Positions 1,255 through 29,999 of a stretch of 37,929 nucleotides of DNA are shown here, piece by piece. Source of the DNA: a bacterium. GTDB taxonomy: Bacteria; B130-G9. The translations under genes and the position numbers were made by a program. How positions within the stretch are numbered: the stretch's first letter is position 1; each line of letters begins with the position of its first letter. Where the stretch lies: positions 1-37,929 of the forward strand of contig JAGHCW010000188.1 of NCBI GenBank assembly GCA_021160245.1. Direction: 5' to 3'. The notes under the pieces were generated by a model. The model saw nothing but the letters and a program-made list of their open reading frames with translations, was not told where the DNA came from and searched no databases.

Positions 1255-1923
1255 CTAACCGCGAGCGGCGTGCGATAGATTCTGCACCATATCCCCTACG
1301 GAAGAAGACCCGCGCGCGATGTCAATTATGCCTTCGAGGCGCATCGATTTCCCATGGGCGACAGCACTCGCTTGTGTCAGGACGAAGCATATTGCGCATT
1401 CATCTTCGGCCCAAACGGCCAGCATTGCCGGCGCCTCTTCATGAGTAATCATCTCATCTGCGTAGCCAAGCAATGAGACGATATGGTCTTTGGAGAAGGC
1501 GAGATGGAGAAGAGGCCCCTGAAAGCCGAAATGAGCGGCTGCTTCGGCCAGCGGGGTCGATGGCAGAGTATAGATGAAGAGATTGGCTCGCCCGAGCGTC
1601 CGGCCACAAGCGGCGTAGTCCTTGAAGTAATCGAGATTCGTCCGAAGGGCGCCGGCCTCGTTTATGCCAAGGATCCCTATGTCCTGCTTACTCTTCTTGG
1701 AATAGACAATCCCCGCGTCATGCAAAGCAAGCGCGCAGGCACTGACAACGGCTTTTGAAGCGGCGTCAAATCGCCGAAATCCCGCGACCTTATACCGAAG
1801 CACGGATTCATCCAGCAGTCGCTTTGTCAGCGACCTCGGATCAGCGTAAGGCCATTGCTGTTGCTGCATGACGCAGCCGAATTCATCTCGATTTAGCCAT
1901 CCGACGCCGGTGATGGCGATCAC
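1255..1923 (-). CDS. Beta-ketoacyl-synthase-like N-terminal domain protein (ApeC-like chain length factor)
   Basis: 222 aa, MIAITGVGWLNRDEFG...AASKAVVSACALALHDAG; KS N-terminal fold only, with no nucleophilic Cys in the expected region (GPLLHLAFSKDH). Size and context match the short ketoacyl-synt_2/CLF proteins of APE clusters. Confidence 0.7.
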   Translation of the reverse strand: MIAITGVGWLNRDEFGCVMQQQQWPYADPRSLTKRLLDESVLRYKVAGFRRFDAASKAVVSACALALHDAGIVYSKKSKQDIGILGINEAGALRTNLDYFKDYAACGRTLGRANLFIYTLPSTPLAEAAAHFGFQGPLLHLAFSKDHIVSLLGYADEMITHEEAPAMLAVWAEDECAICFVLTQASAVAHGKSMRLEGIIDIARGSSSVGDMVQNLSHAARG

Positions 1924-1962: not shown

Positions 1963-2682
1963 TCAGCGGGAATGGGAGGCGCTCAAGTTCTTGAGCTTCT
2001 CACCCGCCGTGTTCGCATAATTATTGAGAAGAATCCTAAAAAGTTTTCGCCAATTGGTGGTGTCGGCCATCTGACACATCGTTGCCGCCGACGCCTCGAG
2101 CACAATCGCCTTGTCGAGGCCCTGCACGCGTATCGTAGTGGCAACCTCAGCTTCCAGAGCCATCATCCAAGGCCCGGGCACAAACCACCCCCAGAACTTG
2201 TCTATCGCCATGTCCATTACGATAGCGTTCGCTTCCGCCTCGCCTTCATTCTGCACAACCGCGTATCCCTCTGCGCGCAAATCATTACTCACTACATCGT
2301 AGATAACCGTCTCAACGGTCTGTCCTTCGGGGAGCAGTATCTCGCCAAGTGCCATGTCGAGATGATTGCGCTTTCTGGCTATGGCTCTTCTCTTTGTATC
2401 TTCCGTTGCCCGCCGCACGCCTCCGAATCCCAGGGATGGCGTGCTTGGTGAGGGGGAATTGTCCTGAAAGTTACGATTGTCCCGAATCGAGCGAATGAGA
2501 ATTTGCTTACCATTTCCATCGCCCGGTTTTAACTTGGGCAGGTCCAATTTCAAATAGCCACGGTAAATCGGACGTCTAACCGTTCCCCACTTTGGTTCAC
2601 ACCCGGCAACACCAAGAGCGCTCATGAGGACGAGCAGTAACGCAAGACCCCTCATCGTAGCTTTCATCATCCTCTTACCCAT
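1963..2682 (-). CDS. Predicted lipoprotein, possibly YajG-like
   Basis: Signal peptide with lipobox LGVAGC; 239 aa; co-directional in the operon. Confidence 0.6.
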   Translation of the reverse strand: MGKRMMKATMRGLALLLVLMSALGVAGCEPKWGTVRRPIYRGYLKLDLPKLKPGDGNGKQILIRSIRDNRNFQDNSPSPSTPSLGFGGVRRATEDTKRRAIARKRNHLDMALGEILLPEGQTVETVIYDVVSNDLRAEGYAVVQNEGEAEANAIVMDMAIDKFWGWFVPGPWMMALEAEVATTIRVQGLDKAIVLEASAATMCQMADTTNWRKLFRILLNNYANTAGEKLKNLSASHSR

Positions 2683-2718: not shown

Positions 2719-3888
2719 TCACGCTCTCAGAACCAAAGCCCCATTGATGCCTCCGAAGCCGGCGCTTGTTGACAGCGCAACTTCGCCATCTATGCGGCAC
2801 GCCTTATTTGAGACCCAACCCCTCGCGTCATCATCAATGTCCAGAAGACCGATTGTCGGCGGCAAGACACCCTCCTTCAGCGCTCTCAGTGTGATGATCA
2901 CCTCTATAAGGCCGGCCGCGCCCAACGTGTGCCCTATCGCGCCCTTGATTGAGAATGTTGGAACTGATCGTTCGCCGAGGGCCGATTTCAAAGCTCTTAT
3001 CTCCATCGCGTCATTATATACCGTAGCCGTTCCGTGCGCCGAGACACAATCGATCTCGCCTTTGTCTATTCCTGACGATTCCAGCGCCTTTCGAATGGCG
3101 ATCGCAAGACCGCTGCCATCGCGCAATGGGCCGGTCATGTGATGAGCGTCGTTGCTCAATCCCAGGCCCAGAACCTCCCCCAGAACGGGGCGACTCTCGC
3201 GCCTCGCCCGGTCCTCACTCATAACCAGCACAAGACCCGCCGCCTCGCCTAAGGTAAGACCATTGCGGTTCTTGTCAAAGGGACGTGCCATATCGGTGTC
3301 GAGCGCCATCAGCGAGGAGAAGCCGGAGAAGACGAACTCGCTCACGCAATCACACGCAACCACAAGCACGCAATCGCGCTCCATACGGCGGACCATCTCA
3401 GCAGCCCTTCCGACCGCAGCCGTCGAAGACACACATGCGGCCGAGATGACCATGCCCGGCCCATCGGTTCCGAAAAGCCGCATGACTTTTTTTAGCAGCA
3501 GATCGAGCCTGCTATCATCTCTATCTGGGCCGTTGTCTCCGCGGAGGACATGTCGCTCTAAAAGGTCGATCTCACCGACCGTCGTGGCCAGAATAGTAGA
3601 GGCATCTGGAGGGATGAGCGAGGCGCACCGGCGCATGATGGGGGAGAGCATTTGCATCACGAGCGACGAATCTGCATTCGGGTTGAGGTCAGGGGCGATG
3701 GCCGCATTGAGTGTTCTGAACGCGTTTGTGTCGAGCCGCTTGAGTTTCTTTACGGCGGTTTTGCCCGACATCAGACCGTCCCAACAGGCGTCCTCGCCAA
3801 GTCCGTAGGGGGTCATAAGCTCGCAGGTCGTGATGACCGCTCTTATCTCATCCAGTCGAACTCTCCCCTCACCCAGCGCTCGCGGCAC
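2719..3888 (-). CDS. Beta-ketoacyl-ACP synthase (KAS I/II type)
   Basis: SAACVSSTAAVGRA active-site Cys, SAHGTATVYNDAMEI and KGAIGHTLGAAG His motifs. Start uncertain: overlaps the 3' end of the upstream thioesterase. Confidence 0.92.
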   Translation of the reverse strand: MPRALGEGRVRLDEIRAVITTCELMTPYGLGEDACWDGLMSGKTAVKKLKRLDTNAFRTLNAAIAPDLNPNADSSLVMQMLSPIMRRCASLIPPDASTILATTVGEIDLLERHVLRGDNGPDRDDSRLDLLLKKVMRLFGTDGPGMVISAACVSSTAAVGRAAEMVRRMERDCVLVVACDCVSEFVFSGFSSLMALDTDMARPFDKNRNGLTLGEAAGLVLVMSEDRARRESRPVLGEVLGLGLSNDAHHMTGPLRDGSGLAIAIRKALESSGIDKGEIDCVSAHGTATVYNDAMEIRALKSALGERSVPTFSIKGAIGHTLGAAGLIEVIITLRALKEGVLPPTIGLLDIDDDARGWVSNKACRIDGEVALSTSAGFGGINGALVLRA

Positions 3889-4343
3889 TTTAGAAGAATC
3901 TCGGGCGCTGATATATAAAAATCCCTATCCAAGCCGGTAAGCATCTGGACGGTGAATCCCGTCGCGGCGAGACTGTTGTCCAGCCGGCGGACCTCGTATT
4001 CGATGTTTATCCTTGCGCCTTCGCAATAAAATAGCGACGCCACAATGGAGAATTCCTCATCCAGCAGGAGAGGACCGTAGTAGTCAACGTGCAGCTGGAC
4101 AATCGGCGCCCGCACCTTGGCCTTCCTGAAATCCTCGAACGATAGGCCAATGTGCCTGAAGAGCTCGGTGAATCCCTGCTCAAAGTATGATGTATAACGG
4201 CCGAACCAGACGATGCCCATTGCATCAACCTCGCTGAAGCTCGCGCGCCCCTTGACTCTTATGACCAGTGGTTTGGGCGCCCCGGCCTGCTGTTCAAAAT
4301 AACCATTTTGCTTGCGTCTAGCATTCATCTGACTCCAAACCAC
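3843..4343 (-). CDS. Acyl-CoA/ACP thioesterase, 4HBT hotdog family (ApeK-like)
   Basis: FSEVDAMGIVWFGRYTSYFEQGFTELFR motif of YbgC/FadM-type thioesterases. Confidence 0.87.
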   Translation of the reverse strand: MVWSQMNARRKQNGYFEQQAGAPKPLVIRVKGRASFSEVDAMGIVWFGRYTSYFEQGFTELFRHIGLSFEDFRKAKVRAPIVQLHVDYYGPLLLDEEFSIVASLFYCEGARINIEYEVRRLDNSLAATGFTVQMLTGLDRDFYISAPEILLKCRERWVRGEFDWMR

Positions 4344-4719
4344 CCGTTTTGAGAGCGACTCGCAGCCGCAGCTCGCATACGCGCTCGTCGCCGTTTGAGA
4401 TCGACGACCTTACCGCAACTTCATTCACTGTGATCATATTCAAGTTGCACTCAACGAGCAAATCCTGCTCGCTAGTTACGGGCAGAAAGAACTTCGCGGA
4501 GACTATCTCGATGAGCTCAACATCATCCGCAAGTTGGGCCTCGAGCATAGCAATCACAGCTCCCACTTGACAGACGGCAGGCAAAACAGGCCTGCCCGGA
4601 AAATGACCCTGAAAGCCCACAAAATCGTCCGCAAATCGGAAATGAGCGCAGAGCCCTCCGTCCTCGGTAGCCGTGAGGCCGGACATGCTACGAAATATCT
4701 GATATGACATGAGGCTCAT
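4318..4719 (-). CDS. FabZ/FabA-like hotdog dehydratase (ApeI-like)
   Basis: FVGFQGHFPGRPVLPAVCQVGAV, cf. HFPGxPVxPGV of 3-hydroxyacyl-ACP dehydratases. Confidence 0.82.
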   Translation of the reverse strand: MSLMSYQIFRSMSGLTATEDGGLCAHFRFADDFVGFQGHFPGRPVLPAVCQVGAVIAMLEAQLADDVELIEIVSAKFFLPVTSEQDLLVECNLNMITVNEVAVRSSISNGDERVCELRLRVALKTGGLESDEC

Positions 4720-5387
4720 TGGCGAACTTCCTTCAACCGAATGATGAGACTATAGCACCCGCGATGATTCTTGAGCAAGATGCCGTCCGGGTATAGCTTT
4801 CCGTTGCGCCGTGTGTATTCTCGATAGTGGATGGTTCTAACGAGCCGGCCATCCTCGAAACATCGCTTCCTAACAAGCGCCTTGTGTGGCCCCGCGAATA
4901 CGTATTCGAGAGTGCGCGCCTCGTCTTTCGACACAAAGGTCACCCTATTGCGACTCTTCTTCACCTGGGCCGATGTGGGGGGAACGCGGTCGAAATAAAT
5001 CGCCCGAATGTCACCGGCGATATTCTGCGCCCAATTTGGCATACGGGAGAATTGCTCAATTGCGAAGCTTGAGTCTATCGCATCGGCGTTTCCTGCAAGC
5101 TCAAAGAGCTTGAGCCCGACCGGGCTAAGGCCAACTGCTGTGAAGGTCTTTTGCTCATCGTTTACTGCGAGCAGACCTAGGGCCGCATAAGCGCGGAAGC
5201 CGAAGCGAAAGACAATGCTGCAAGTCAGATATTGCTCGTTGTGAAGGTCTTCTGCGAATTGCTCCCTGATGTCAGTAGGGCTATCACCCTTGACCGAGAC
5301 GTATTTGACCCGCTCGAAGGGGACCCTACTGCATCCGGCGAGGCCCAGGAATAGTGTGAACATGGTCAGGGCTATGGCGCGTCGCAT
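4716..5387 (-). CDS. Lipoprotein, DUF3261-like (ApeN-like)
   Basis: Start trimmed to internal ATG at 5387 (MRRAIALTMFTLFLGLAGCSRVPF, lipobox LAGC). Overlaps the next start by ATGA. Family by operon context and size. Confidence 0.65.
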   Translation of the reverse strand: MRRAIALTMFTLFLGLAGCSRVPFERVKYVSVKGDSPTDIREQFAEDLHNEQYLTCSIVFRFGFRAYAALGLLAVNDEQKTFTAVGLSPVGLKLFELAGNADAIDSSFAIEQFSRMPNWAQNIAGDIRAIYFDRVPPTSAQVKKSRNRVTFVSKDEARTLEYVFAGPHKALVRKRCFEDGRLVRTIHYREYTRRNGKLYPDGILLKNHRGCYSLIIRLKEVRQ

Positions 5388-5389
5388 AA

Positions 5390-7840
5390 TCAAGTGCAGG
5401 ATGAGCCTTGGGGCCGTGCCCAAAGCCGATATAGCGAAGGCACGACGAGTATTGATGTGATGTAGCCGGCAAGCACTCCGATCACGAGCGTCTGGCCGAT
5501 GGAAAATAGGAGCGCGTGCTTGGCAAACAGAAGCGCGCCTGCGCCAATTACAGTGGTCAACATGGATATACATATCGCCATCGAGGTTCCTATTCTTAGT
5601 CTATTGTGGCAAGCATAAACCATGAATACTCCGTAATCAATTGAGAGGCCAACCACGACCAGGGCTGCGACGACTCTTGCGGCATTCAAGCGCATCCCGA
5701 AGAGAGGAATCGCTCCAAGGACTATCAAGAGCGACGAGACCACAGGAACCAGCGCGATGGCGGCAAGTTTGACCCTACGCAGCAGCAGAAGCGTCAAGAG
5801 CGGTATTATGACAGCGGCAATTGCGGAGAGATAGAGCAACTCCGAGAAGACTGCGTCGGAAATGGCCTGGGAAAGAGCGCTGCGCGAGACGATGAACGTC
5901 CCGGAATGATGCTCGCTGATTTTCGTGAGCGCCGATACGGATGACTCATCGTCGGGGAAATAAGACAAGACCTGATAGCCCTCGTCTTTTTTTAGCACAA
6001 ACTGGTCCTTAAGACTCTCGAAGAAACTGAGACCTTCTGGCCAATCACTAGAGTTCATCTTGGGGTACATGTCGTCGAAGAACGGAGCGAAAGCGTCCAA
6101 AGAGAAATGATGCTCGCTGCCGTGTTCACGAAGAAGGTCCGCTAACTTGGCCTCCCTGCCGGCTCTCCAGAAATCATTCCACCGGGCAAGATTCCTACCC
6201 CGTGTCCTCTTTGATGGCCAGACGGAGGTGAGTCGCGTGAAGTTCTTCTGCCCTAACTTCCGGGTGGCCTCACCTGACACATCTTCCTCGAGCTGAAGAG
6301 CATCCTCCAGCGTCTTGCCGGAACAGACGAGTATGGCAGGCCTATCTCGCCCGCCCCACACATCATGGAATCGTCTCTCCGCCTCCTTAATCTCAGGCTC
6401 GCTTCCGTCAAACTGATTTACATCGCTGTCGAATTTCACGCCGAGCGTGAAGAAGAGTGCGCCGAGTACGATGATGCCCCAGAGCGCCACGAGCAGATAG
6501 TCGGGGAATGCCCCAGATGGCCGTTCGTCAAATCGAAAGGCGCCGGGGAATCGGCTGCAATCGCCGGCTCGCCAGAATTGGGGAAGAATGAGAAGCGCGC
6601 CCGCGAGGCAGAGGGCGATGCTGATTGTGGCAAACAGAGCCAGATGATGATAGCCGATGACGCTGGAGAATACGAGCGACGCGAATACGCCCAGCGTCGT
6701 CAACGCGCCGATTGTTATGGGTTTGGCGACCGCTCGAATGGAATCTGCCCCAGGGCCTTTCATGCGGACCGCCATATAAGTATGAATCCCGTAATCTGCC
6801 GCAATGCCGATGACCACGGCCCCCATACCCACGGCGACATGCGAGATACTCCCAAGCAGAAAGCTCGAGACGTTGATCGACATGAGAACGGCCACAAGCG
6901 GCATGATGAAGATGGTGATCGCCCTAATATCTTTGAAGACAAAAAGGAACAGGAATAAGAATGCGGCCGAGACGATGATGATCGTCAGCCTGACGTCTCG
7001 TTTGACGACTTCCTCGTTGCTGATCGTGTGCAGATGCGCCGCGATGATATCGGTCGATACGAACTCCGGCAGGGCTTTTAGCTGTTTTCTTAGATATGAA
7101 ATCAATTTCCTTGTGCCGTCCGCATCTGTGAGTGGCACTGGGGTCTCGAGCACAAGCATGGCATGCCTCCCGTCTTTGCTGACGAGATGACCATTCTCGA
7201 TCAGAAGGTCGAATCCCGATGAGGATGATAGAGTCTTCAGCGAGCTCAGGATGCCCGTCTTAACGCCTAGCGGATCGGCCCTGATAAACGGTATCGTGAC
7301 CGCGCTCGCGGGTGTCAACAGCTGCCGGAAGTTCTCTGCCATCTTCTTTTTGACGCCGTCCGGTGTTATCTGCTCGTTTGCCTCTTTCAGGGCTGATTCA
7401 TCCAGGATTTGAGGCGCAAAGCTCAAGAACTCGAGCATCTCTTCCATAATGTTCGCCTCGGACGCAATGCCGATAATCTTCGTGATTTGTGGCGGCTTAA
7501 GCGTCTCAGCAAGAGCATCCACCGATTGAAGCAAGTCGTTTTTTGTGTATTCGGGAGACACAAGTCCGAAGGAGAGCACGACCCGGTCTGAGAGCTTTGA
7601 CTCGCGCAAGAATCTCATGCAGCGGCGAACTTGGTTGTTTTGGGGGATGATCAGGTCAAAGTCGGCATCAAACGAGACGAAGCGAAGGCCGATGAGGGCG
7701 GCGATTACGAGTATAGAAATCGAGACGAGAGTTGACCACCTGCGCCCCCCAATCCAGCCGTATAGCTGTGAAAACCAATCAGGACGGATGTCAGGGGGCA
7801 CGAGGCGGGATTTCCCAAACGGAGGCATCGATCTTTTCAT
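5390..7840 (-). CDS. MMPL/RND-superfamily exporter
   Basis: 816 aa; duplicated TM blocks with VIGIAADYGIHTYMAVRM and VVGLSIDYGVFMVYACHN motifs. Confidence 0.92.
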   Translation of the reverse strand: MKRSMPPFGKSRLVPPDIRPDWFSQLYGWIGGRRWSTLVSISILVIAALIGLRFVSFDADFDLIIPQNNQVRRCMRFLRESKLSDRVVLSFGLVSPEYTKNDLLQSVDALAETLKPPQITKIIGIASEANIMEEMLEFLSFAPQILDESALKEANEQITPDGVKKKMAENFRQLLTPASAVTIPFIRADPLGVKTGILSSLKTLSSSSGFDLLIENGHLVSKDGRHAMLVLETPVPLTDADGTRKLISYLRKQLKALPEFVSTDIIAAHLHTISNEEVVKRDVRLTIIIVSAAFLFLFLFVFKDIRAITIFIMPLVAVLMSINVSSFLLGSISHVAVGMGAVVIGIAADYGIHTYMAVRMKGPGADSIRAVAKPITIGALTTLGVFASLVFSSVIGYHHLALFATISIALCLAGALLILPQFWRAGDCSRFPGAFRFDERPSGAFPDYLLVALWGIIVLGALFFTLGVKFDSDVNQFDGSEPEIKEAERRFHDVWGGRDRPAILVCSGKTLEDALQLEEDVSGEATRKLGQKNFTRLTSVWPSKRTRGRNLARWNDFWRAGREAKLADLLREHGSEHHFSLDAFAPFFDDMYPKMNSSDWPEGLSFFESLKDQFVLKKDEGYQVLSYFPDDESSVSALTKISEHHSGTFIVSRSALSQAISDAVFSELLYLSAIAAVIIPLLTLLLLRRVKLAAIALVPVVSSLLIVLGAIPLFGMRLNAARVVAALVVVGLSIDYGVFMVYACHNRLRIGTSMAICISMLTTVIGAGALLFAKHALLFSIGQTLVIGVLAGYITSILVVPSLYRLWARPQGSSCT

Positions 7841-8513
7841 TTAAGCGCGTATCTGAGAATATGAGCCGCGTGCTGTCGCCGCATTTCTCCTGGATGCGAA
7901 TTTCCTGAATGTACTTCTCATCCGGCCTGAATGAGATCTCAATGCTCTTGATGACTTTTGAGATGACGGAGCTCTTTCTGGGCACGAATTTGAGCACTAC
8001 GGGGCAGCTCTTGATAACGGATACTTCGTATTCGCGGCTGAGCAATAGGTACTCGCCGGATAGCCATTGTTTCATCTGCTCGACGGCCTTCTGCATCGGC
8101 GGGTTTTTTGAGAGCGGCGATTTCGTGGTCTTTTTTGTGTCCTCGTCCCACTGATATAGGACATTGTCCTTGATGATCATTGAGTATCGAAGAGGAGTTT
8201 TGACGTGCCAGGCAAGTTGAGCCGGTCTCTTTACGAACAGGTTGCCCTTCAACACGAGTTCTTGGTCCAAAATGGCCAGGCTCTTTCTCTGGACGAATCC
8301 GCTCTCAAGGGAGGTCAGTGATGACATCGTCTTCTGAAGCCTTTGAAGGACGGCCTCCACGTCGGGACCTATCTGGCCGGACGTGTTAGCTGAGGCTTCG
8401 CCGGCCGAGGCGCTGAAGGCGGCCAGGCACAGAGTAATGATGGATAGCGCGCGGCAGGCCCTCAATGCAAAAGCTCTCCTGCTCTCATCCCGCTCCCTTC
8501 GCATGTTTGCCAT
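7791..8513 (-). CDS. LolA-like outer-membrane lipoprotein carrier/sorting protein
   Basis: Signal peptide; LTSLESGFVQRKSLAILDQELVLKGNLFVKRPAQLAWHVKTPLRYSMIIKDNVLYQWD is typical of LolA-like proteins. Confidence 0.83.
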   Translation of the reverse strand: MANMRRERDESRRAFALRACRALSIITLCLAAFSASAGEASANTSGQIGPDVEAVLQRLQKTMSSLTSLESGFVQRKSLAILDQELVLKGNLFVKRPAQLAWHVKTPLRYSMIIKDNVLYQWDEDTKKTTKSPLSKNPPMQKAVEQMKQWLSGEYLLLSREYEVSVIKSCPVVLKFVPRKSSVISKVIKSIEISFRPDEKYIQEIRIQEKCGDSTRLIFSDTRLNEKIDASVWEIPPRAP

Positions 8514-9987
8514 TTGCGCCTTCGTCCTCCCATATCTTTATCTCGCCCTTAGCGAGCAGTTTCCCATTAAGCGAGACCGTTCCTTCGACGATTCCAAAAC
8601 CGCCATACTTCGCGGTCTCCTTCACCCTGATTTCCAGCACATCCCCGACATTCGCGGTTCCAAGAACCTTGAGATTCTTGACGGCAACTAGGAAACCCTC
8701 TAGCGAATAGCCCGGCGCGGCCATCATTCGGAAGCATTTGTGCGCAGCCTTTGTCTGGGCAATCATCTCGATGAAAACGAGCGCATCCAGCGTCCCATCC
8801 TCGGCGACGAACGGCATGGCCTCCGTGATGGTCACGGTGGCCTTGGCGGTGCGCTCGCCAACCTCGATAAGATGGTCAACGACCCGTATCGGCAGACGGT
8901 GTGGAATGATCCCCTCAATCAAGAGCGGCAGAGCGGTAATCTCGTCTTGTCGTTCTATATTCATCCAGCATAGTGGGTCGGAGGCGAGGTAGTTGCCCGT
9001 CAACTGGTATGCCGCGCCTCGGCAGCCATAGCAGCCGTCCTTTTTCTCGCACGTTCCACAAGGGCCTTGTATTGTGTTGTGATAGTTCTTCAGGTCTCGC
9101 ATGACCTCGCTTGTGCTCAAGATGTCGGCAAGGGCCAGCTGCCTTATGCTGCCAATTGGGATGGTTACGCCGACGCACGGGAAGACGTCACCATGCGAAC
9201 TTACGAGGCAGGAAAAAAGATGCCGCATACATCGGTGCCCGAGTAGTGGGGGCTGAGGGTCCCAGGCGAGGCCGTATTCATTCCGGTCGATTGCGCAAAC
9301 CTCGGAAAAAAGAGCATGGAGCCTCTCTGGCTCAACTTCCAGCCACTGATTGCTATTCGCGTTTCCCTGAGGCGTTATCATCTCGAAGTAGGGGACGATC
9401 TCCTGGTCTCGCAACCACCTCCACATTTTTGGCAGATCGTCGATGTTCTGCTTGCAGATGATAGTGCTGACCGCCAAAACCGCGCTCTTGGAGGGGTAGC
9501 CCGCTTCCTTTAGATTTGCGAATGCTGAGCGGATTATCTTGAATGACCCGGGCCTGCCGGTAAGCGTGTCCTGTGTTTTCTCATCAAATGAGTTCATCTT
9601 CAATATGACCCGAACGTCCAGGTCAATGAGCTCTTTTGCGACTTCGGCCGATAGATTCGTCCCGTTTGTGAACATCTCCACGCAAAGTCCCTCGTTCCTG
9701 ATGAACCTCAGCGTCGGGAGTATCCTGGGGTGGAGCATCGGCTCTCCGCCTAGGATGATAATCCGCTTTGCCCCTAAGTCTTTTGCCTGCCGGATAACAT
9801 CGCGAACTTCCTCGTCCGTGAGCTCATTTACGAGGTCAGACGCCTTTGGGACATAGCAATATGGGCAGTTGAAATCGCAGCGCAAGCTCAGCTCGAGCTC
9901 CATAGATAGAAGCCGCCCCTCTCTGACAGCCTGCTCAATCTGCTCTTGAGACTCGCACCCCGGAACGCTTATGTGGCAGAGCGGCAA
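8485..9987 (-). CDS. Radical SAM/SPASM enzyme fused to C-terminal ApeP/FabZ-like hotdog dehydratase domain
   Basis: N-term CDFNCPYC (CxxxCxxC), GGEPML; SPASM cysteines CVGV...CGTCEKKDGCYGC...DPLC. C-term IIPHRLPIRVVDHLIEVGERTAKATVTI...LVFIEMIAQTKAAHK...GTVSLNGKLLAKGEIKIWE. One uninterrupted 500-aa frame. Confidence 0.87.
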   Translation of the reverse strand: MPLCHISVPGCESQEQIEQAVREGRLLSMELELSLRCDFNCPYCYVPKASDLVNELTDEEVRDVIRQAKDLGAKRIIILGGEPMLHPRILPTLRFIRNEGLCVEMFTNGTNLSAEVAKELIDLDVRVILKMNSFDEKTQDTLTGRPGSFKIIRSAFANLKEAGYPSKSAVLAVSTIICKQNIDDLPKMWRWLRDQEIVPYFEMITPQGNANSNQWLEVEPERLHALFSEVCAIDRNEYGLAWDPQPPLLGHRCMRHLFSCLVSSHGDVFPCVGVTIPIGSIRQLALADILSTSEVMRDLKNYHNTIQGPCGTCEKKDGCYGCRGAAYQLTGNYLASDPLCWMNIERQDEITALPLLIEGIIPHRLPIRVVDHLIEVGERTAKATVTITEAMPFVAEDGTLDALVFIEMIAQTKAAHKCFRMMAAPGYSLEGFLVAVKNLKVLGTANVGDVLEIRVKETAKYGGFGIVEGTVSLNGKLLAKGEIKIWEDEGANGKHAKGAG

Positions 9988-11267
9988 CTTGCTGGCTCCT
10001 CTCTAAAAAAGCGAACCGGTTTTCGCGACCCCTCGTCATAGACGCGTCGTCGAATTGCAGCCTCATCCAAGACAACCACCTCGGGTCTCACTCGCAGTCT
10101 AGCCTGGAGCCTCCGGATTATCTCGTTCGCCTCGGCAGACGGGTCCTTCAGCGCTACATATATGGTTAGGATATCGGATAGATTGGCATCTGTCCGCAAC
10201 TCAAGATAATAGTCGCAGACGGCGTCAATCTCGTCTAGTACCGAGTAAACGGTCTGGGGGTATAGCGTCGTACCTCGGACTTTCATCATCTGCTGCTTTC
10301 TGCCGAGAATGGGACCCAGCCGAGGCGTTATTCGTCCGCATGAACAAGGCTCGTCGATAAGGAAGCTGATGTCTCCCGTCTTGAAGCGGATGAGCGGCAT
10401 TCCCTCAACCATCATGGGTGTTATCACGAGCTCTCCGATCTGTCCCGGCGGCAAGACTGAGCCCTCGTTATCTACTATCTCGGCGATGGCGAGGTCGGGA
10501 TGCAGATGCCCCCCCGCCTGGGCTGCGCATTCGCAGAAAGTCGTTACCATCTCGGACGAGGCGTATGTGGAGAAGACCTTTGCGCCCCAGATGCTCTCCA
10601 AGTCTGCGCCCACCTTCAGAGGCGCAAGTCGCTCATCACGCAACGGCTCCCCTATGCAGACAAGTCGCTTAACTGCGGTCCTTCTGGGGTCGATGCCCTT
10701 CTTCTGAAGATGAATCCCAAGCCTCCTCAGGAATGTGGGGACACCCACAATCGCGGTAGGGTTCATCCTCGCTATGATCTCCGTGTGGCTCTGAGGCGTA
10801 TTGACGCCGTTGCGAATCGCCGCAGCGCCTAAGGCCCGGGTCCCAAGGAAATAGGCCAGGCCCGCGACGAAGCATCTGTCAATCGTGCAGGTCAAGAGGA
10901 CTATGTCGCTAGCTGTGATGCCACAAGCTGCAAACGACTTCATCTCGTTATACTCCAGCCGCCGCAGGTCGTGTTCAGTGTACATCACCTGGGTTGGCTT
11001 GCCGCAGGTCCCGGACGACAGAACGATATCGACTATCTGATTTGAAGAGACGGCGCGGAACTCATCGTTTGCCAGCTCAAAATCCGTCTTATCCGTAAAT
11101 GGCAGATCGGACATCTGGTCAAGAGTTATCCGCTCGATGTCCGGGGCTAGGTCTTCGAGAAGCTTTCTATAATAAGGCGAATTAGCCCGACAATAGGCCA
11201 GATGCTCTCGCAGGTTCTTCTGCTGGACGTCCCTGATGGCCTTGGGATCGGAGAATGCTATGTCCAA
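9969..11267 (-). CDS. Adenylate-forming ligase, phenylacetate-CoA ligase (PaaK/CapK)-like
   Basis: VLSSGTCGKPTQVMYTEHDLRR (P-loop), STYASSEMVTTFCEC, IRFKTGDISFL, C-terminal MKVRGTTLYPQTVY. Confidence 0.88.
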   Translation of the reverse strand: MDIAFSDPKAIRDVQQKNLREHLAYCRANSPYYRKLLEDLAPDIERITLDQMSDLPFTDKTDFELANDEFRAVSSNQIVDIVLSSGTCGKPTQVMYTEHDLRRLEYNEMKSFAACGITASDIVLLTCTIDRCFVAGLAYFLGTRALGAAAIRNGVNTPQSHTEIIARMNPTAIVGVPTFLRRLGIHLQKKGIDPRRTAVKRLVCIGEPLRDERLAPLKVGADLESIWGAKVFSTYASSEMVTTFCECAAQAGGHLHPDLAIAEIVDNEGSVLPPGQIGELVITPMMVEGMPLIRFKTGDISFLIDEPCSCGRITPRLGPILGRKQQMMKVRGTTLYPQTVYSVLDEIDAVCDYYLELRTDANLSDILTIYVALKDPSAEANEIIRRLQARLRVRPEVVVLDEAAIRRRVYDEGSRKPVRFFREEPASCRSAT

Positions 11268-11284: not shown

Positions 11285-12091
11285 TTATTCCGCCTCTTGA
11301 TCCATTTCAGCAGTCCGGGCCGCGATGATTGCTCGGACGTGATTCTTCAGTTCAAACGGTTTCATTTTCTTAAACACTTCCCACTTAAGTGCAGGGAGCT
11401 TATACAGCTTTATCTTACCCGGTTGAAGCACAAAGTCACGTGAGGGTATTTTCTCATTCCCGACGACGCACATGGGCACGATGGCGCATTGAGATTCAAG
11501 CGCGATGCGGAAGATAGAACCGTGGAATTGCCCCATGTCGGAGCTTCCTGACCGCGTCCCCTCAGGAAACGCGACTATGGAGACGCCATCTTTGAGCAAT
11601 CTGAGCGCCTTGGCGGAGAAATCAGCGAATGATATCTCGTTGACGCTGAGATAGCCCGCCATCCGTGCTGCTCTACCCAGAATAGGGATATTAAATGTCC
11701 AGGTATTCGCTACTTGGACAGCTTCAAACGGGAGACAGCCCATCAGGAATGGGTCCGAGGCGGAACGGTGATTACAGATGAAGATGAAGGGGCCAGGGCC
11801 GTCATCGGGACCGAGATTTCTGTAGCGAACTCTTATCAACGGGAAGGCAAGCCCATATATCACTGCAAGGCCATACCAGCTGATGCTTCGGCGAAGCCGC
11901 CTCAAAGCGAGCCTTCGAGAGAAAATGCCAATGATAAGAACCGCCGGGACCAATGCTAAAACGGCGAGCGGTGTAAAGAGCAGCAGCCACACGTAGAAGA
12001 ACGTGTTGAGATAGACGACGCGAAAATCTCTGTATTTTCTAAGGCCCCAGAAGAATGACAATGTGGATTTGAGTCGCCGGAGACGGGGCAT
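11285..12091 (-). CDS. 1-acyl-sn-glycerol-3-phosphate acyltransferase-like (LPLAT) protein
   Basis: FICNHRSASDPF (NHxxxxD) and VAFPEGTRSGSSDMGQFHGSIFRIA. Start trimmed to MPRLRRLKSTL to limit overlap with the ACP. Confidence 0.86.
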   Translation of the reverse strand: MPRLRRLKSTLSFFWGLRKYRDFRVVYLNTFFYVWLLLFTPLAVLALVPAVLIIGIFSRRLALRRLRRSISWYGLAVIYGLAFPLIRVRYRNLGPDDGPGPFIFICNHRSASDPFLMGCLPFEAVQVANTWTFNIPILGRAARMAGYLSVNEISFADFSAKALRLLKDGVSIVAFPEGTRSGSSDMGQFHGSIFRIALESQCAIVPMCVVGNEKIPSRDFVLQPGKIKLYKLPALKWEVFKKMKPFELKNHVRAIIAARTAEMDQEAE

Positions 12092-12104
12092 CTCTACACC
12101 GTCC

Positions 12105-12383
12105 TCAAACCGGTTTCTTGTCCGATTGGCTTTCCAAAGAGAGCTCAATGACATAATCATAAACGTCGCCTAAGGTCCGGATGCCTCTGAGTCTGGGGTC
12201 ATCACGAACCTTGACGTCGAACTTCTGCTGCAATCCAACGGCCAGGTCCACAACATCTAGGCTGTCCAAACCCAAATCATCAAACAAGTGCCTCTCGCGC
12301 AGAAGGTCGGCTTGCTTGATCTCAAAGGACTCCTTGAAAACCTCGTTGACCGCCGCGACTATCTGCTCATTTGTCATATCCAA
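12105..12383 (-). CDS. Acyl carrier protein
   Basis: 92 aa with LFDDLGLDSLDVVDLAVGLQQKF phosphopantetheine attachment motif. Confidence 0.92.
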   Translation of the reverse strand: MDMTNEQIVAAVNEVFKESFEIKQADLLRERHLFDDLGLDSLDVVDLAVGLQQKFDVKVRDDPRLRGIRTLGDVYDYVIELSLESQSDKKPV

Positions 12384-12399: not shown

Positions 12400-13626
12400 T
12401 CAATTCTCGGCCTTCTTGCAGACTAAGGCCGCGTTTATTCCGCCAAATGCAAAGCAGTTCTTGATAAAAATATCAATCTTGCGGCGTAGTAGGTTGATTA
12501 CATGATGCGGTCCACTGCAATCTGGGTCAACATTCACAAGGTTCAGCGTCGGGAATATCGCGCCTTCTGCCATCATGGCAAGTGACACTATAAGCTCAAG
12601 CGCGCCCGATGCGCCGAGGGTATGTCCGATATGCCCTTTGAGGCTGCTCACAGGCACGTTGTCCCCCAATATCTGGCTTATCGCTTCCGCCTCTTCCTTA
12701 TCCCCCTGGAGCGTCGCAGTTGCGTGGGCATTGATGTAATCAACGTCCGCCGGGGAAATCCCCGCGTCTTTCATCGCATTGCTGAGGCAGGAGATTATTG
12801 AGGCGCTGTTTGATTGGCTGATGTGCGCTCCGCTGCCGCAGGTGTTGTATCCGATGATCTCCCCATAGACCTTCGCCTCTCTTCTCCGAGCATGATCGTA
12901 TTCCTCAAGCACTATCATTCCGCTACCCTCGCCGCAGACAAGTCCGTCTCTATCTTTGTCGAATGGCCTCGGCGTTTTTTGCGGCTCGTTATTGTAGTTT
13001 GTGGAAGTCGCCATAAGAACGTCAAATATCCCGGTTACCGTCGGATGAAGCTCCTCTGCCCCGCCGCAAAGCGCCAAGTCCTGCCTGCCGAGACGGATCA
13101 AATCGTATCCGACGCCGATTGCCTGCAAGGCAGACGCACACGCCGCAGACGTTGCCATCACGCAGCCCGTAATTCCGAGCAGCTGCGCCACGTTCATCGC
13201 TGCCGTGTGAGAAACGCACTGAAAGAACTTTGTCGAGGTTAGGTTCGTGATGTTCCGCTCTGGCAGAATCGTATCATAAGCCTCGAATATGCTCTGAGCG
13301 CCGCCCATTGTTGAGCCGATAATGCACCCCATACGACCCGAAGTCCGCGCCTCGTCCTCTATGCGCGCGTCCTTGAGAGCTTGCTGAGCAGCCTGCGCGG
13401 CGAAGAGACTCATCCGGCCCATTGTCCGCCGATACTTTCGGGGGATCGCTTTGGGATTCACAAGCTCGGCCGGCGCCGCGACGAGGCTTTTGAGACCGGT
13501 CAGTTCATCCCACCCGTCCATGAACCTGACGGCGCTTCTGCCTTGTCTTATGCCCTCAATAAGCGAGGGGACATCGCCGCCCAAACCAGAAACAGCGCCT
13601 ACTCCGGATATAATAACTCTCTTCAA
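12400..13626 (-). CDS. Beta-ketoacyl-ACP synthase II-like
   Basis: TSAACASALQAIGVGYDLI (Cys), NAHATATLQGDKEEAEA, KGHIGHTLGASG. Probable TTG start (LKRVIISGVGAVSGLG); ORF extends to 13716. Confidence 0.9.
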   Translation of the reverse strand: MKRVIISGVGAVSGLGGDVPSLIEGIRQGRSAVRFMDGWDELTGLKSLVAAPAELVNPKAIPRKYRRTMGRMSLFAAQAAQQALKDARIEDEARTSGRMGCIIGSTMGGAQSIFEAYDTILPERNITNLTSTKFFQCVSHTAAMNVAQLLGITGCVMATSAACASALQAIGVGYDLIRLGRQDLALCGGAEELHPTVTGIFDVLMATSTNYNNEPQKTPRPFDKDRDGLVCGEGSGMIVLEEYDHARRREAKVYGEIIGYNTCGSGAHISQSNSASIISCLSNAMKDAGISPADVDYINAHATATLQGDKEEAEAISQILGDNVPVSSLKGHIGHTLGASGALELIVSLAMMAEGAIFPTLNLVNVDPDCSGPHHVINLLRRKIDIFIKNCFAFGGINAALVCKKAEN

Positions 13627-13737
13627 TCTTGTATTCTCCGATTTCTTAGGTCGCCCGTCGCCTTGCTCGTGCGCCAGGCTATGTCCGACAAGTTGGCGAA
13701 GGAGGATTCTTCCCATATTCCGCCTGCCGGAAACATC

Positions 13738-14469
13738 TTACATGGCCATGCCGCCGTTGACGCCGATGACCTGTCCATGAATGTACATGTTCTCCTCGGT
13801 GCAGAGGAAATCAACGAGCGCAGCTACGTCTTCTGGCATGCCGAAGCGATTTAGTGGAATGAGCGGCAGTATCTCGCCCTTGTTAAGACCAGCAGTCATG
13901 TCAGTCTCGATAACGCCCGGGGCAACCACATTGACTAGTATGTGCTTCCGTCCGACCTCTCTCGCCAGCGCTTTCGCGGCGCCTATTAGCCCCGCCTTTG
14001 ACGCCGAGTAATTGACCTGACCTCCGTGTCCGATTTGGCCAGAAATCGAGGAGATAACTACGATGCGGCCTCGTTTGACACGAAGCATCGGAAACAGAAT
14101 CGAATGTATCACATTGTAAAAGCCGTCGAGATTGGTGGACAGCACGGTATCCCACTCATCTTTTGTCATCCAAACAAGGAGATTGTCACGGGCGATTCCA
14201 GCGCAGAACACAACGGCATCTGGGGGGGTCTCATTCGCTCTATCCTCAAGAGACTCTCTCGTCTGCTCATAATTAGAGATATCGAATGACAGTGGCAGGC
14301 ACAACCGTCCTAGCGACTCAACCTCCGCTCCAACCGCCGCCGCCGCCTCGTGATTGCTGTAGTATCCGAGCCATATATCAAAGCCGGAACGGGCGAGGCG
14401 CAACGCTATTGCGCGTCCAATGCCACGGCTACCTCCGATAACAAGCGCGGTTTTCTCATCTCTGCTCAT
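13738..14469 (-). CDS. 3-oxoacyl-ACP reductase (FabG-like SDR)
   Basis: ALVIGGSRGIGRAIALRLARSG, VISSISGQIGHGGQVNYSASKAGLIGAAKALARE, PGVIETDMT. Start trimmed to MSRDEKTALVIGG. Confidence 0.93.
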   Translation of the reverse strand: MSRDEKTALVIGGSRGIGRAIALRLARSGFDIWLGYYSNHEAAAAVGAEVESLGRLCLPLSFDISNYEQTRESLEDRANETPPDAVVFCAGIARDNLLVWMTKDEWDTVLSTNLDGFYNVIHSILFPMLRVKRGRIVVISSISGQIGHGGQVNYSASKAGLIGAAKALAREVGRKHILVNVVAPGVIETDMTAGLNKGEILPLIPLNRFGMPEDVAALVDFLCTEENMYIHGQVIGVNGGMAM

Positions 14470-14482
14470 TTGCAGATATCCC

Positions 14483-15103
14483 TTAGAAAAATGTTCCCAC
14501 GATAAACGCCACGAAATCAGTTCCGGCGTTATCTCGATGAAACCCGCCGTTTGAGATGTGCCCAAATCGTATGGCTGCGAAGATTGGCTCCCACGTCTTG
14601 AACGAGAGCTCCACGCCCAGTCCGGCCCTCGGGTTGAAATTGAACCTAAGTCCCTGCCCCGACCGCCGGAAATCTGTGTAAATAACGCCTATTCCCGCCT
14701 CGAGATAGGGACGTATGCCGCCGGGGAAATCGCCCAGATAGTTGAATACTAGCATTCCGATCGAGGCCATAGCTCGACGGTTGGGACGGACTGTCATTCC
14801 GGTCGCGCACTCGAGTTTCAGGCGCAAGCGCTTTGGTACCTCGTGGTGACTGAACTTCGCATAGTCGAGGATCGCACAGCCCGAAAGCAGAGCGAAGCTG
14901 CGGTCGAAGTCTGGGTTATAGGTGTTCCCAAGCACTGCTGACACCCCATAGCGGTTACGGATGCTTTTGGTCTCATTCTCCTCTGAGCAAGCTCTGCCTG
15001 GAATCGCCACTGCAATGACAACCAAGAGAACCAGCGGAAATAATGCAGTACGAACCGGATGCAGACCAGCTGCTGTCAAATCTGTGATCGAATGGGAGCC
15101 CAT
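14483..15103 (-). CDS. PagL-like lipid A 3-O-deacylase / acyloxyacyl hydrolase family
   Basis: Signal peptide, beta-barrel-like C-terminus with RFGHISNGGFHRDNAGTDFVAFIVGTFF (PagL-type HxSN...N.G motif, terminal Phe). Confidence 0.78.
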   Translation of the reverse strand: MGSHSITDLTAAGLHPVRTALFPLVLLVVIAVAIPGRACSEENETKSIRNRYGVSAVLGNTYNPDFDRSFALLSGCAILDYAKFSHHEVPKRLRLKLECATGMTVRPNRRAMASIGMLVFNYLGDFPGGIRPYLEAGIGVIYTDFRRSGQGLRFNFNPRAGLGVELSFKTWEPIFAAIRFGHISNGGFHRDNAGTDFVAFIVGTFF

Positions 15104-28429: not shown

Positions 28430-29999
28430 CTATTCAGTTTGAATGATGGGAATCCCTTGAGGGTCAGACTCGTGAGGTCTATGACCAGTTTGTCCGGTCT
28501 TTGCACGGGTATCACCAGATGTTTCAGCCTTCTCGCGTTTCGACCCGGCGACCCACTCAACAAACTCTGGTGGTGCGTTTTTCACAAGATACGCTGCGCG
28601 CTTCAGATGTTCAGCTCTGGCGATGCATGACAACACTGGAAAGCGCTCGATGTTGTGCCCGTCTATTCGAGCCATGTCATTGAAGCACCCGCCCGCGCAA
28701 TTATACCTCATTGGGCACTTCCCACAGACAGGCGAGTCCCAGAAGAACTTGCGCCGCTCGCGCATTAGCGATTGCTGGTCGAAACCTCCGAATACATCGC
28801 CAATCCTATAATCTTCATTATCTAAGAACGTATAGCACGAGAAAAGGGCCCCGTCGGGTCGCACGGAGTAACTCCCTCGGCAAGCTCCGCAGCCGCTAAG
28901 CGGGAAAGCAGGCTCCAGAACTTCTGAAGAGAGGCTGAAGATGGGATTGACGACCACTCTACGCCCGGCTGCCATCAACCTCACCCACCTGTCAGTTAAC
29001 TCATCAGAAAAAGAGCGAAATACATCAATGTTGTCCTGTTGCCAAGAGGAGGCCATGGGCGCCGCAGGTCGGTCGGTGACGTAATCATGGGCAGCCGTGA
29101 ATGAATACTTGATAGGCGCCGAAAGAGAAGAGAAAATCCAGGTTCTCGTCTATGAGCTTTCTGGGTCCAGGAACGACCGTGACCCTAAAATGGACATTTC
29201 GGTTCATTTGGCCGACGACGAGGCGTATCTTTGCCAGGAGGTCCTCATATCTACGGCGGGAGTTGCCAATCCGATAGCGCTGGAACTCGAACATTCCATC
29301 GAAGCTTAATACCGGCACGATGTTTTTCTCGATGAACAGATCGACAATGCTATCTGTAAGGAGTGATCCATTTGTGGTTATTGCGAAGATGATCTTCCTG
29401 CCATGTCTCTCTGCGGCATGCTCTGCATACTCAATAGTCTGTCTCATCAAGCTCTCACAGAGTAGAGGTTCTCCACCGAAGAATGTTAAGGATATTGGGT
29501 GCTTCCCCGGTGTTTGCATCAAGAAATCAACCGCGCTTCTAGCTGTATTAACCGACATGTGCGTTCGATACTGTGGCGGAATGCCCTTCAAGTTGCAGTA
29601 TTCACACGAGAAGTTGCACCGGAGTGTCACGCAGAGCGTGAGCCCCGTGGGGCAATAACGCGGTCGCAACCTCGCCCGTTTGCTCGCAGGTGGGATGAGA
29701 TTTCACAAGCTGTTCATAGAGCACGGGGACATGCTCGGGTTCAGGGCCCAGCCCCTCCGGCCAACACTCATAGCGGACATCTGACCAATTCTCGCTTTCG
29801 AGGTATCTGTTGATGCGCGGAACGCCCCGCCATTGTGATCTGGGTAGTGGTTCGTCACCTGGAGGTAACTCAGGGACTTTGTAAAAGCGGCAGTTTCCGG
29901 CTGCCACAAGAAGGCCATATTCCGAAAATAATACCCTAAGTAGTATGGACGATCCCTAAGCTCTGTAGAATATAACAGTCTCGATCTCCTGCTACCCAT
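28430..29999 (-). pseudogene. Radical SAM/SPASM peptide-maturase-like gene split over several reading frames
   Basis: Ordered minus-strand segments: 29999 MGSRRSRLLYSTELRD...; then a second frame PELPPGDEPLPRSQWRGVPRINRYLESENWSD...EQTGE; then RPRYCPTGLTLCVTLRCNFSCEYCNLKG (CxxxCxxC)...FGAYQVFIH; then AAHDYVTDRPAAPMASSWQQDNIDVF... with SPASM cysteines CGAC...SCYTF...CGKCPMRYNCAGGCF...LSC. Three frame changes near 29880, 29660 and 29090. Confidence 0.82.

Follow-up and report, generated by a model that had tools for sequence, protein, structure and literature searches.

A radical SAM/SPASM enzyme fused to an ApeP-type hotdog domain recurs in polyene/fatty-acid-like operons

What does a radical SAM/SPASM enzyme act on when it shares one polypeptide with a dehydratase-type hotdog domain, inside an operon for polyene- or fatty-acid-like synthesis? 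The question arises from a stretch of 37,929 nucleotides (hereafter the window; contig JAGHCW010000188.1 of assembly GCA_021160245.1), for which such a fusion had been predicted from the letters of the DNA. The fusion is not described in the literature that we found, in a search that reached few subscription papers, and the same search returned no paper combining radical SAM, SPASM, acyl carrier protein (ACP) and polyketide, or the polyene/cyclopropane combination.

Results

A single frame joins the two halves

The original prediction of an uninterrupted frame of 500 aa at 8485-9987 was borne out, and the frame lies on the minus strand, a detail that the prediction had not given; its TTG start is aligned with the ATG of the homologues. 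The radical SAM domain covers residues ~28-240 and the SPASM region ~253-341, and a short linker leads to the hotdog domain at ~355-489 (Table 1). Residues 33-191 match Pfam Radical_SAM (PF04055) with 90.8 bits (cut-off 29.5), and residues 253-313 match SPASM (PF13186) with 28.0 bits (cut-off 21.5). The cluster motif C37, C41, C44 (CxxxCxxC) is invariant in an alignment of 20 fusions, and the SPASM-region cysteines C253, C260, C271, C310, C313, C319, C322 and C340 are invariant across 20 homologues, with a spacing (C253-x12-G266-x4-C271, C310xxC313x5C319xxC322, C340) in which the auxiliary-cluster set is present. The last spacing in SPASM domains is usually x3; in the fusion it is x2.

An AlphaFold2 model of the fusion, built from 20 fusions, reached a mean pLDDT of 82.9 and a pTM of 0.80, and the best fold matches of its first part include the radical SAM/SPASM enzymes SkfB and PqqE. 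The matches listed from a plasmid collection were all partial, at 24-32% identity, to PqqE/MftC-like and other radical SAM proteins. No NCBIfam equivalog scored above its cut-off for the fusion; the AhbD match (131 bits, cut-off 500) is one at the level of the superfamily, and no reaction was assigned from it.

Table 1 Features of the fusion gene and its operon in the window
Feature	Position	Strand	Basis or remark
Short KS-like protein without active-site Cys (KSx)	1255..1923	-	same place in homologous operons
Lipoprotein-like protein	1963..2682	-	no family match
Second ketosynthase, active-site Cys (SAACVS)	2719..3888	-	
4HBT-type thioesterase (ApeK-like)	3843..4343	-	
ApeI-like hotdog, likely dehydratase partner	4318..4719	-	GHFP His kept, acid position replaced
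DUF3261 (ApeN/LolB-like) protein	4716..5573	-	true start probably later than frame start; function per PMC8253772
RND/MMPL-type exporter (HpnN-like)	5390..7840	-	
LolA2-like lipid carrier	7791..8513	-	
Radical SAM/SPASM - ApeP-type hotdog fusion, 500 aa	8485..9987	-	ORF, Pfam, alignment, profile, model
ApeP-type hotdog half	8488..8925	-	invariant Glu407, Gln411; no FabZ-type His (Phe393 instead)
Radical SAM + SPASM half	8947..9987	-	C37xxxC41xxC44 and eight invariant SPASM-region Cys
PaaK/FlxY-like AMP ligase	9969..11267	-	455 bits to FlxY (cut-off 520); shares 19 bases with the fusion start
1-Acylglycerol-3-phosphate-type acyltransferase (ApeD-like)	11285..12160	-	
Acyl carrier protein (GLDSLD)	12105..12383	-	
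Ketosynthase, active-site Cys (SAACAS)	12400..13716	-	kept in all homologous loci
Ketoreductase FabG/FlxB-like	13738..14565	-	

The hotdog half is of ApeP type and probably one half of a split dehydratase

Taken alone, the C-terminal ~145 residues of the window's protein match no Pfam family significantly. Of nine fusion hotdogs in an alignment, eight match the ApeP-like family PF22817 (E<=1, best E 1.9e-7), the window's own giving no match. A profile of the fusion hotdogs has chain B of 6QSR as its best PDB match (E 8e-13), and the same chain, part of the heterocomplex of the ApeI:P dehydratase, is matched by the second part of the AlphaFold2 model over 146 columns (E 4e-11, TMt 0.78). Judged by the family matches of its homologues, by the PDB profile and by the fold of the model, the domain is of ApeP type, with the Glu of ApeP kept, and the initial reading of the frame as a radical SAM/SPASM enzyme with an ApeP-type hotdog domain is upheld.

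Glu407 and Gln411 are invariant in the hotdogs of 20 fusions, and by our reading of the alignments the position of the FabZ His is taken by Phe393. A separate ApeI-like protein of the operon shows the complementary pattern, keeping GHFP in all 18 loci of 18 with the acid position substituted; it is closest to chain A of 6QSR, the fusion hotdog to chain B. Since the dehydratases of aryl polyene (APE) synthesis are ApeI/ApeP heterodimers with a single active site (PMC8041823), the Glu of the hotdog and the His of ApeI lead us to predict that the fused hotdog is half of a split dehydratase. The two proteins thus likely form a heterodimer of the ApeI:ApeP kind, which would act on beta-hydroxyacyl-ACP. 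The earlier description of a dehydratase domain therefore stands as regards the ApeP-type hotdog, but not as regards a complete dehydratase, for by its residues the domain is one partner of a split-site pair.

The missing His could also be taken to mean that the hotdog, predicted from sequence to be inactive alone, is a recognition domain without dehydratase activity, and that the radical SAM half modifies a finished, released or lipid-bound chain, a thought to which the export and acyltransfer genes of these operons lend some colour. We consider this quite improbable: almost all operons of sufficient length hold an ApeI with the complementary His, and no other ApeP is seen in them, so that without the fused hotdog the dehydratase half would be missing.

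The fusion is found in several phyla and is under selection in both halves

The fusion was found in 24 genomes from at least three phyla: that of the window, 17 of Nitrospirota and six more that lie outside the phylum of the window. A scan of a genome collection returned three Nitrospirota genomes at 51-55% identity over the whole length, and a profile search of 396 Nitrospirota genomes gave 15 fusions, including one of the three scan matches and one (L057) whose start is lost at the end of its contig; five other matches covered the radical SAM half alone. Three fusions outside the window's phylum and one match to the radical SAM half only came from 386 genomes (the window's family and a sample of the domain), and nine genomes of a further phylum (around G665) added three more fusions. 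Three other genomes of the window's phylum lack it.

The window's assembly is fragmented (244 contigs), and an error of assembly or annotation could in principle have joined two genes. The chance of this is, in our judgement, practically nil, and we rejected it on the 24 genomes in which the fusion occurs: the homologues align through the junction, at 47-58% identity to the window's protein for those compared, and dN/dS in three close pairs is low in both the radical SAM half (0.09-0.12) and the hotdog half (0.07-0.20), which indicates purifying selection on each. Neither a fusion confined to this assembly nor a pair of unlinked genes, the two outcomes named in advance as fatal to the idea, was what we found; within the fused clade the halves are not two genes.

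In a tree of the radical SAM half, the 21 fusions tested form one clade (100/100) together with a single un-fused sequence, and the un-fused enzymes of anammox type branch outside it. With the un-fused member nested in this way, one fusion event followed by one later loss is apparently the simplest account. That member (L072:3447-4613, genome G626) is a radical SAM/SPASM enzyme of 388 aa with a C-terminal tail unlike a hotdog; it appears to have lost the fused domain, and the tether is thus not essential everywhere. More distant un-fused relatives, L097:9659-10843 (G785) and L063:9162-10211 (G265), have no recognised ketosynthase (KS), ACP or ligase neighbours, and G785 carries a fused copy elsewhere in addition.

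The operon is nearly constant

The surroundings had been described as a polyene/fatty-acid-like operon, and the KS, ketoreductase (KR), ACP, acyltransferase, ApeI and thioesterase genes are indeed present. Genes are spaced by -184 to +39 bases, the fusion overlapping the ligase by 19 and LolA by 29; the overlap of 184 bases probably reflects a start of the DUF3261 frame that is set too early. In Nitrospirota the order is KR, CrtI-like oxidase, KS, ACP, acyltransferase, ligase, fusion, LolA, RND, DUF3261, ApeI, thioesterase, KS, KS-like and two B12-radical SAM genes, and the loci of other phyla match it, except for the rearranged L070 and small differences. The recurrent linkage to the same KS and ACP genes, named beforehand as evidence that would support the idea, is thus seen as a near-constant operon order.

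The window's operon is the Nitrospirota core without the CrtI-like oxidase, which was not found in the window's genome at E 1e-10, so the full Nitrospirota pathway may be absent here. Another contig of the same genome (C139) carries a second operon (L079:5036-12608, minus strand) with homologues of the two B12-radical SAM genes (B12a, B12b), a glycosyltransferase, an ACP and the ketosynthases KSu1/KSu2, genes that in one Nitrospirota genome border the fusion operon; the pathway seems to be split over two genomic places in the window's genome. In one Nitrospirota genome (L017:230-3853, minus strand), a HemN-like radical SAM gene and two more ketosynthase genes point away from the fusion operon. 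Within the window, upstream of the operon, a gene for a PagL-type lipid A deacylase (14483-15103, minus strand) shares bases with the start of the ketoreductase frame. A second radical SAM/SPASM gene at 28430-29669 (minus strand) is divided between two frames, one with the radical SAM part (194 aa) and one with the SPASM part (208 aa), as if frameshifted or split.

In loci L046 (G362) and L047 (G198) the operon has no ligase gene between the acyltransferase and the fusion, and the fusion is intact. An aromatic ammonia-lyase (PF00221) is missing in 10 of the 11 fusion genomes tested, leaving a starter supply of the flexirubin type, through TAL/HAL, unsupported.

These observations bear on what the radical SAM half might do. 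It could make or modify a starter acid, for example an aryl one, to be loaded by the PaaK/FlxY-like ligase, with the ApeP fusion as a scaffold only. The ligase does directly precede the radical SAM gene in nearly all fused loci and in the un-fused ones of ladderane type, and the rarity of the ammonia-lyase suggests that a starter is not made in the flexirubin manner. We nevertheless think this account fairly unlikely: it is weakened by L046 and L047, which keep the fusion where the ligase is lacking, and a dehydratase subunit as fusion partner suggests a place in elongation rather than in loading. Since SPASM enzymes often act on peptides, and in view of the SkfB and PqqE fold matches, the half might instead be a peptide (RiPP-type) maturase that stands beside a lipid operon. 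This we hold to be very improbable, given the strict linkage to KS, ACP, KR and ligase genes over several phyla, the ApeP-type hotdog fused to it, and an N-terminus that directly abuts the radical SAM core and shows no peptide-recognition domain.

Un-fused homologues lie in candidate ladderane clusters of the anammox type

Un-fused homologues of the radical SAM half, in frames of 342-377 aa, directly follow the same kind of ligase in loci L059-L062, and the window's half is 43% identical to the stand-alone enzyme of L059. The genes of L059 run KS, KS-like, methyltransferase, KS, KS-like, ligase, radical SAM, B12-radical SAM, KR, ACP, FabZ, methyltransferase, RND, CrtI-like and glycosyltransferase, which is the order of Kuste3349 to Kuste3335 as given in PMC4790861, with the RND gene at the place of Kuste3337 (unlisted there). 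The first of these methyltransferases matches 8HD2, the PDB entry of AmxMT1 from Brocadia fulgida, over its full length (460 bits, E=5e-137). Judged by gene order and the AmxMT1 homologue, the un-fused enzyme appears to correspond to the Kuste3343 position of the anammox 'ladderane' candidate cluster. AmxMT1 binds an anammox ACP (PMC9821293), which fits ACP-bound intermediates in a ladderane-type pathway. As a separate observation, the FabZ-like protein of L059 (6213-6653, minus strand) reads GRFRENPVMPG, with Arg at the position of the FabZ catalytic His.

Radical SAM genes have been known as ladderane candidates since 2009 (PMC2649909), and the cluster was taken up again in 2016 (PMC4790861), when expression of Kuste3342/3343 in E. 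coli led to neither detectable protein nor new fatty acids. A radical SAM enzyme in a cluster of this kind is therefore nothing new, in view of the un-fused homologue at the apparent Kuste3343 position; it is the fusion for which we found no description.

Discussion

A proposed role for the fusion

From the fold, the split active site and the synteny, which are observed, we infer a substrate and a chemistry for the fusion. Our preferred reading, to which we give a little better than an even chance, is that lipid synthesis of the aryl-polyene type and of the ladderane type are combined here, the dehydratase being tethered to an enzyme that tailors the ACP-bound chain by radical chemistry. The product of the fusion gene would be bifunctional and belong to a type II PKS/fatty-acid-like pathway; this pathway, probably an anaerobic one, would build a polyene-type acyl chain and export it to the outer membrane. 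The hotdog and ApeI would together provide a single-site dehydratase for beta-hydroxyacyl-ACP during elongation, while the radical SAM half would take the same ACP-delivered chain and perform radical C-H chemistry on it (oxidative desaturation, a shift or ring closure), and the role of the fusion would be to hold both ACP-dependent steps side by side. That the radical SAM half acts on this same ACP-bound chain is moderately likely, its fusion to a subunit of an ACP-dependent dehydratase making this more probable. The CrtI-like oxidase (not found here) and the B12-dependent radical SAM enzymes (here on a second contig) may act in the same pathway, and outward transport of the acylated lipid would fall to the LolA, RND and DUF3261 proteins.

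One could also speculate further, in terms that we regard as decidedly unlikely to hold in full, that the dehydratase-tethered radical SAM enzyme works in the elongation cycle on ACP-bound polyenoyl chains and forms rings or unusual unsaturation, which would give Nitrospirota and other phyla a novel polyene lipid, cyclic or cross-linked, and would show the step of the related ladderane enzyme.

To our knowledge, the radical SAM enzymes of the ladderane candidate clusters have no known substrate, and ladderane biosynthesis has been open since those clusters were listed. That an enzyme of this kind is found joined to a subunit of an ACP-dependent dehydratase hints at acyl-ACP, during elongation, as the substrate of the ladderane-type radical step; the fusions are also alternative proteins to express, as against the anammox ones that went undetected in E. 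coli. The fused loci would define hybrid aryl-polyene-type/ladderane-type clusters in several largely uncultured phyla.

Comparison with known systems

The Kuste3343 cluster of Kuenenia stuttgartiensis (Rattray 2009, PMC2649909; Javidpour 2016, PMC4790861) resembles the fused loci in that a radical SAM/SPASM gene adjoins a phenylacetyl-CoA-ligase-like gene, and clusters of its type likewise hold KS/KR/ACP genes, a B12-type radical SAM gene, an RND gene and a phytoene-desaturase-like oxidase. The fused loci thus show the arrangement of a Kuste3343-type radical SAM gene beside a PaaK-like ligase with KS, KR and ACP. In the Kuste3343 type, however, the radical SAM enzyme is un-fused, and loci such as L059 have a separate FabZ-like dehydratase and two methyltransferases, of which (the AmxMT1-type and the second methyltransferase as well as the FabZ) the window's operon has no counterpart; the fused loci have ApeI/ApeP, LolA, DUF3261 and a thioesterase instead.

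The ApeI:ApeP pair of Xenorhabdus doucetiae (PDB 6QSR) is alike in its complementary Glu and His, with our hotdog resembling chain B and the ApeI-like protein chain A. It differs in that ApeP is a separate gene in the E. coli APE cluster (PMC8253772), whereas the ApeP of our loci forms the C-terminal part of a fusion with a radical SAM/SPASM enzyme; a fused dehydratase subunit has a precedent in the ApeH-ApeI protein of Acinetobacter baumannii (PMC8041823). The APE gene set (PMC8253772) is nearly complete in the window, with a KS pair present and radical enzymes added. Compared with aryl polyene and flexirubin clusters (E. coli ApeA-R, Flx), the fusion loci have counterparts of KS, KR, ACP, acyltransferase, FlxY-like ligase, ApeI, ApeP, thioesterase, LolA, RND and DUF3261. 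They differ by the addition of a radical SAM/SPASM enzyme, B12-radical SAM enzymes and a CrtI-like oxidase, and by the ammonia-lyase lacking in all but one of the 11 fusion genomes tested.

HemN-like cyclopropanases of the Jaw5 type act on the growing ACP-bound chain. Jaw5 and its homologues, polyketide cyclopropanases (PMC13389473), share with the fusion the presence of a radical SAM enzyme in a polyketide pathway, but they are HemN-like, carry a Cx7CxxC motif, and have neither a SPASM domain nor a fusion to a dehydratase.
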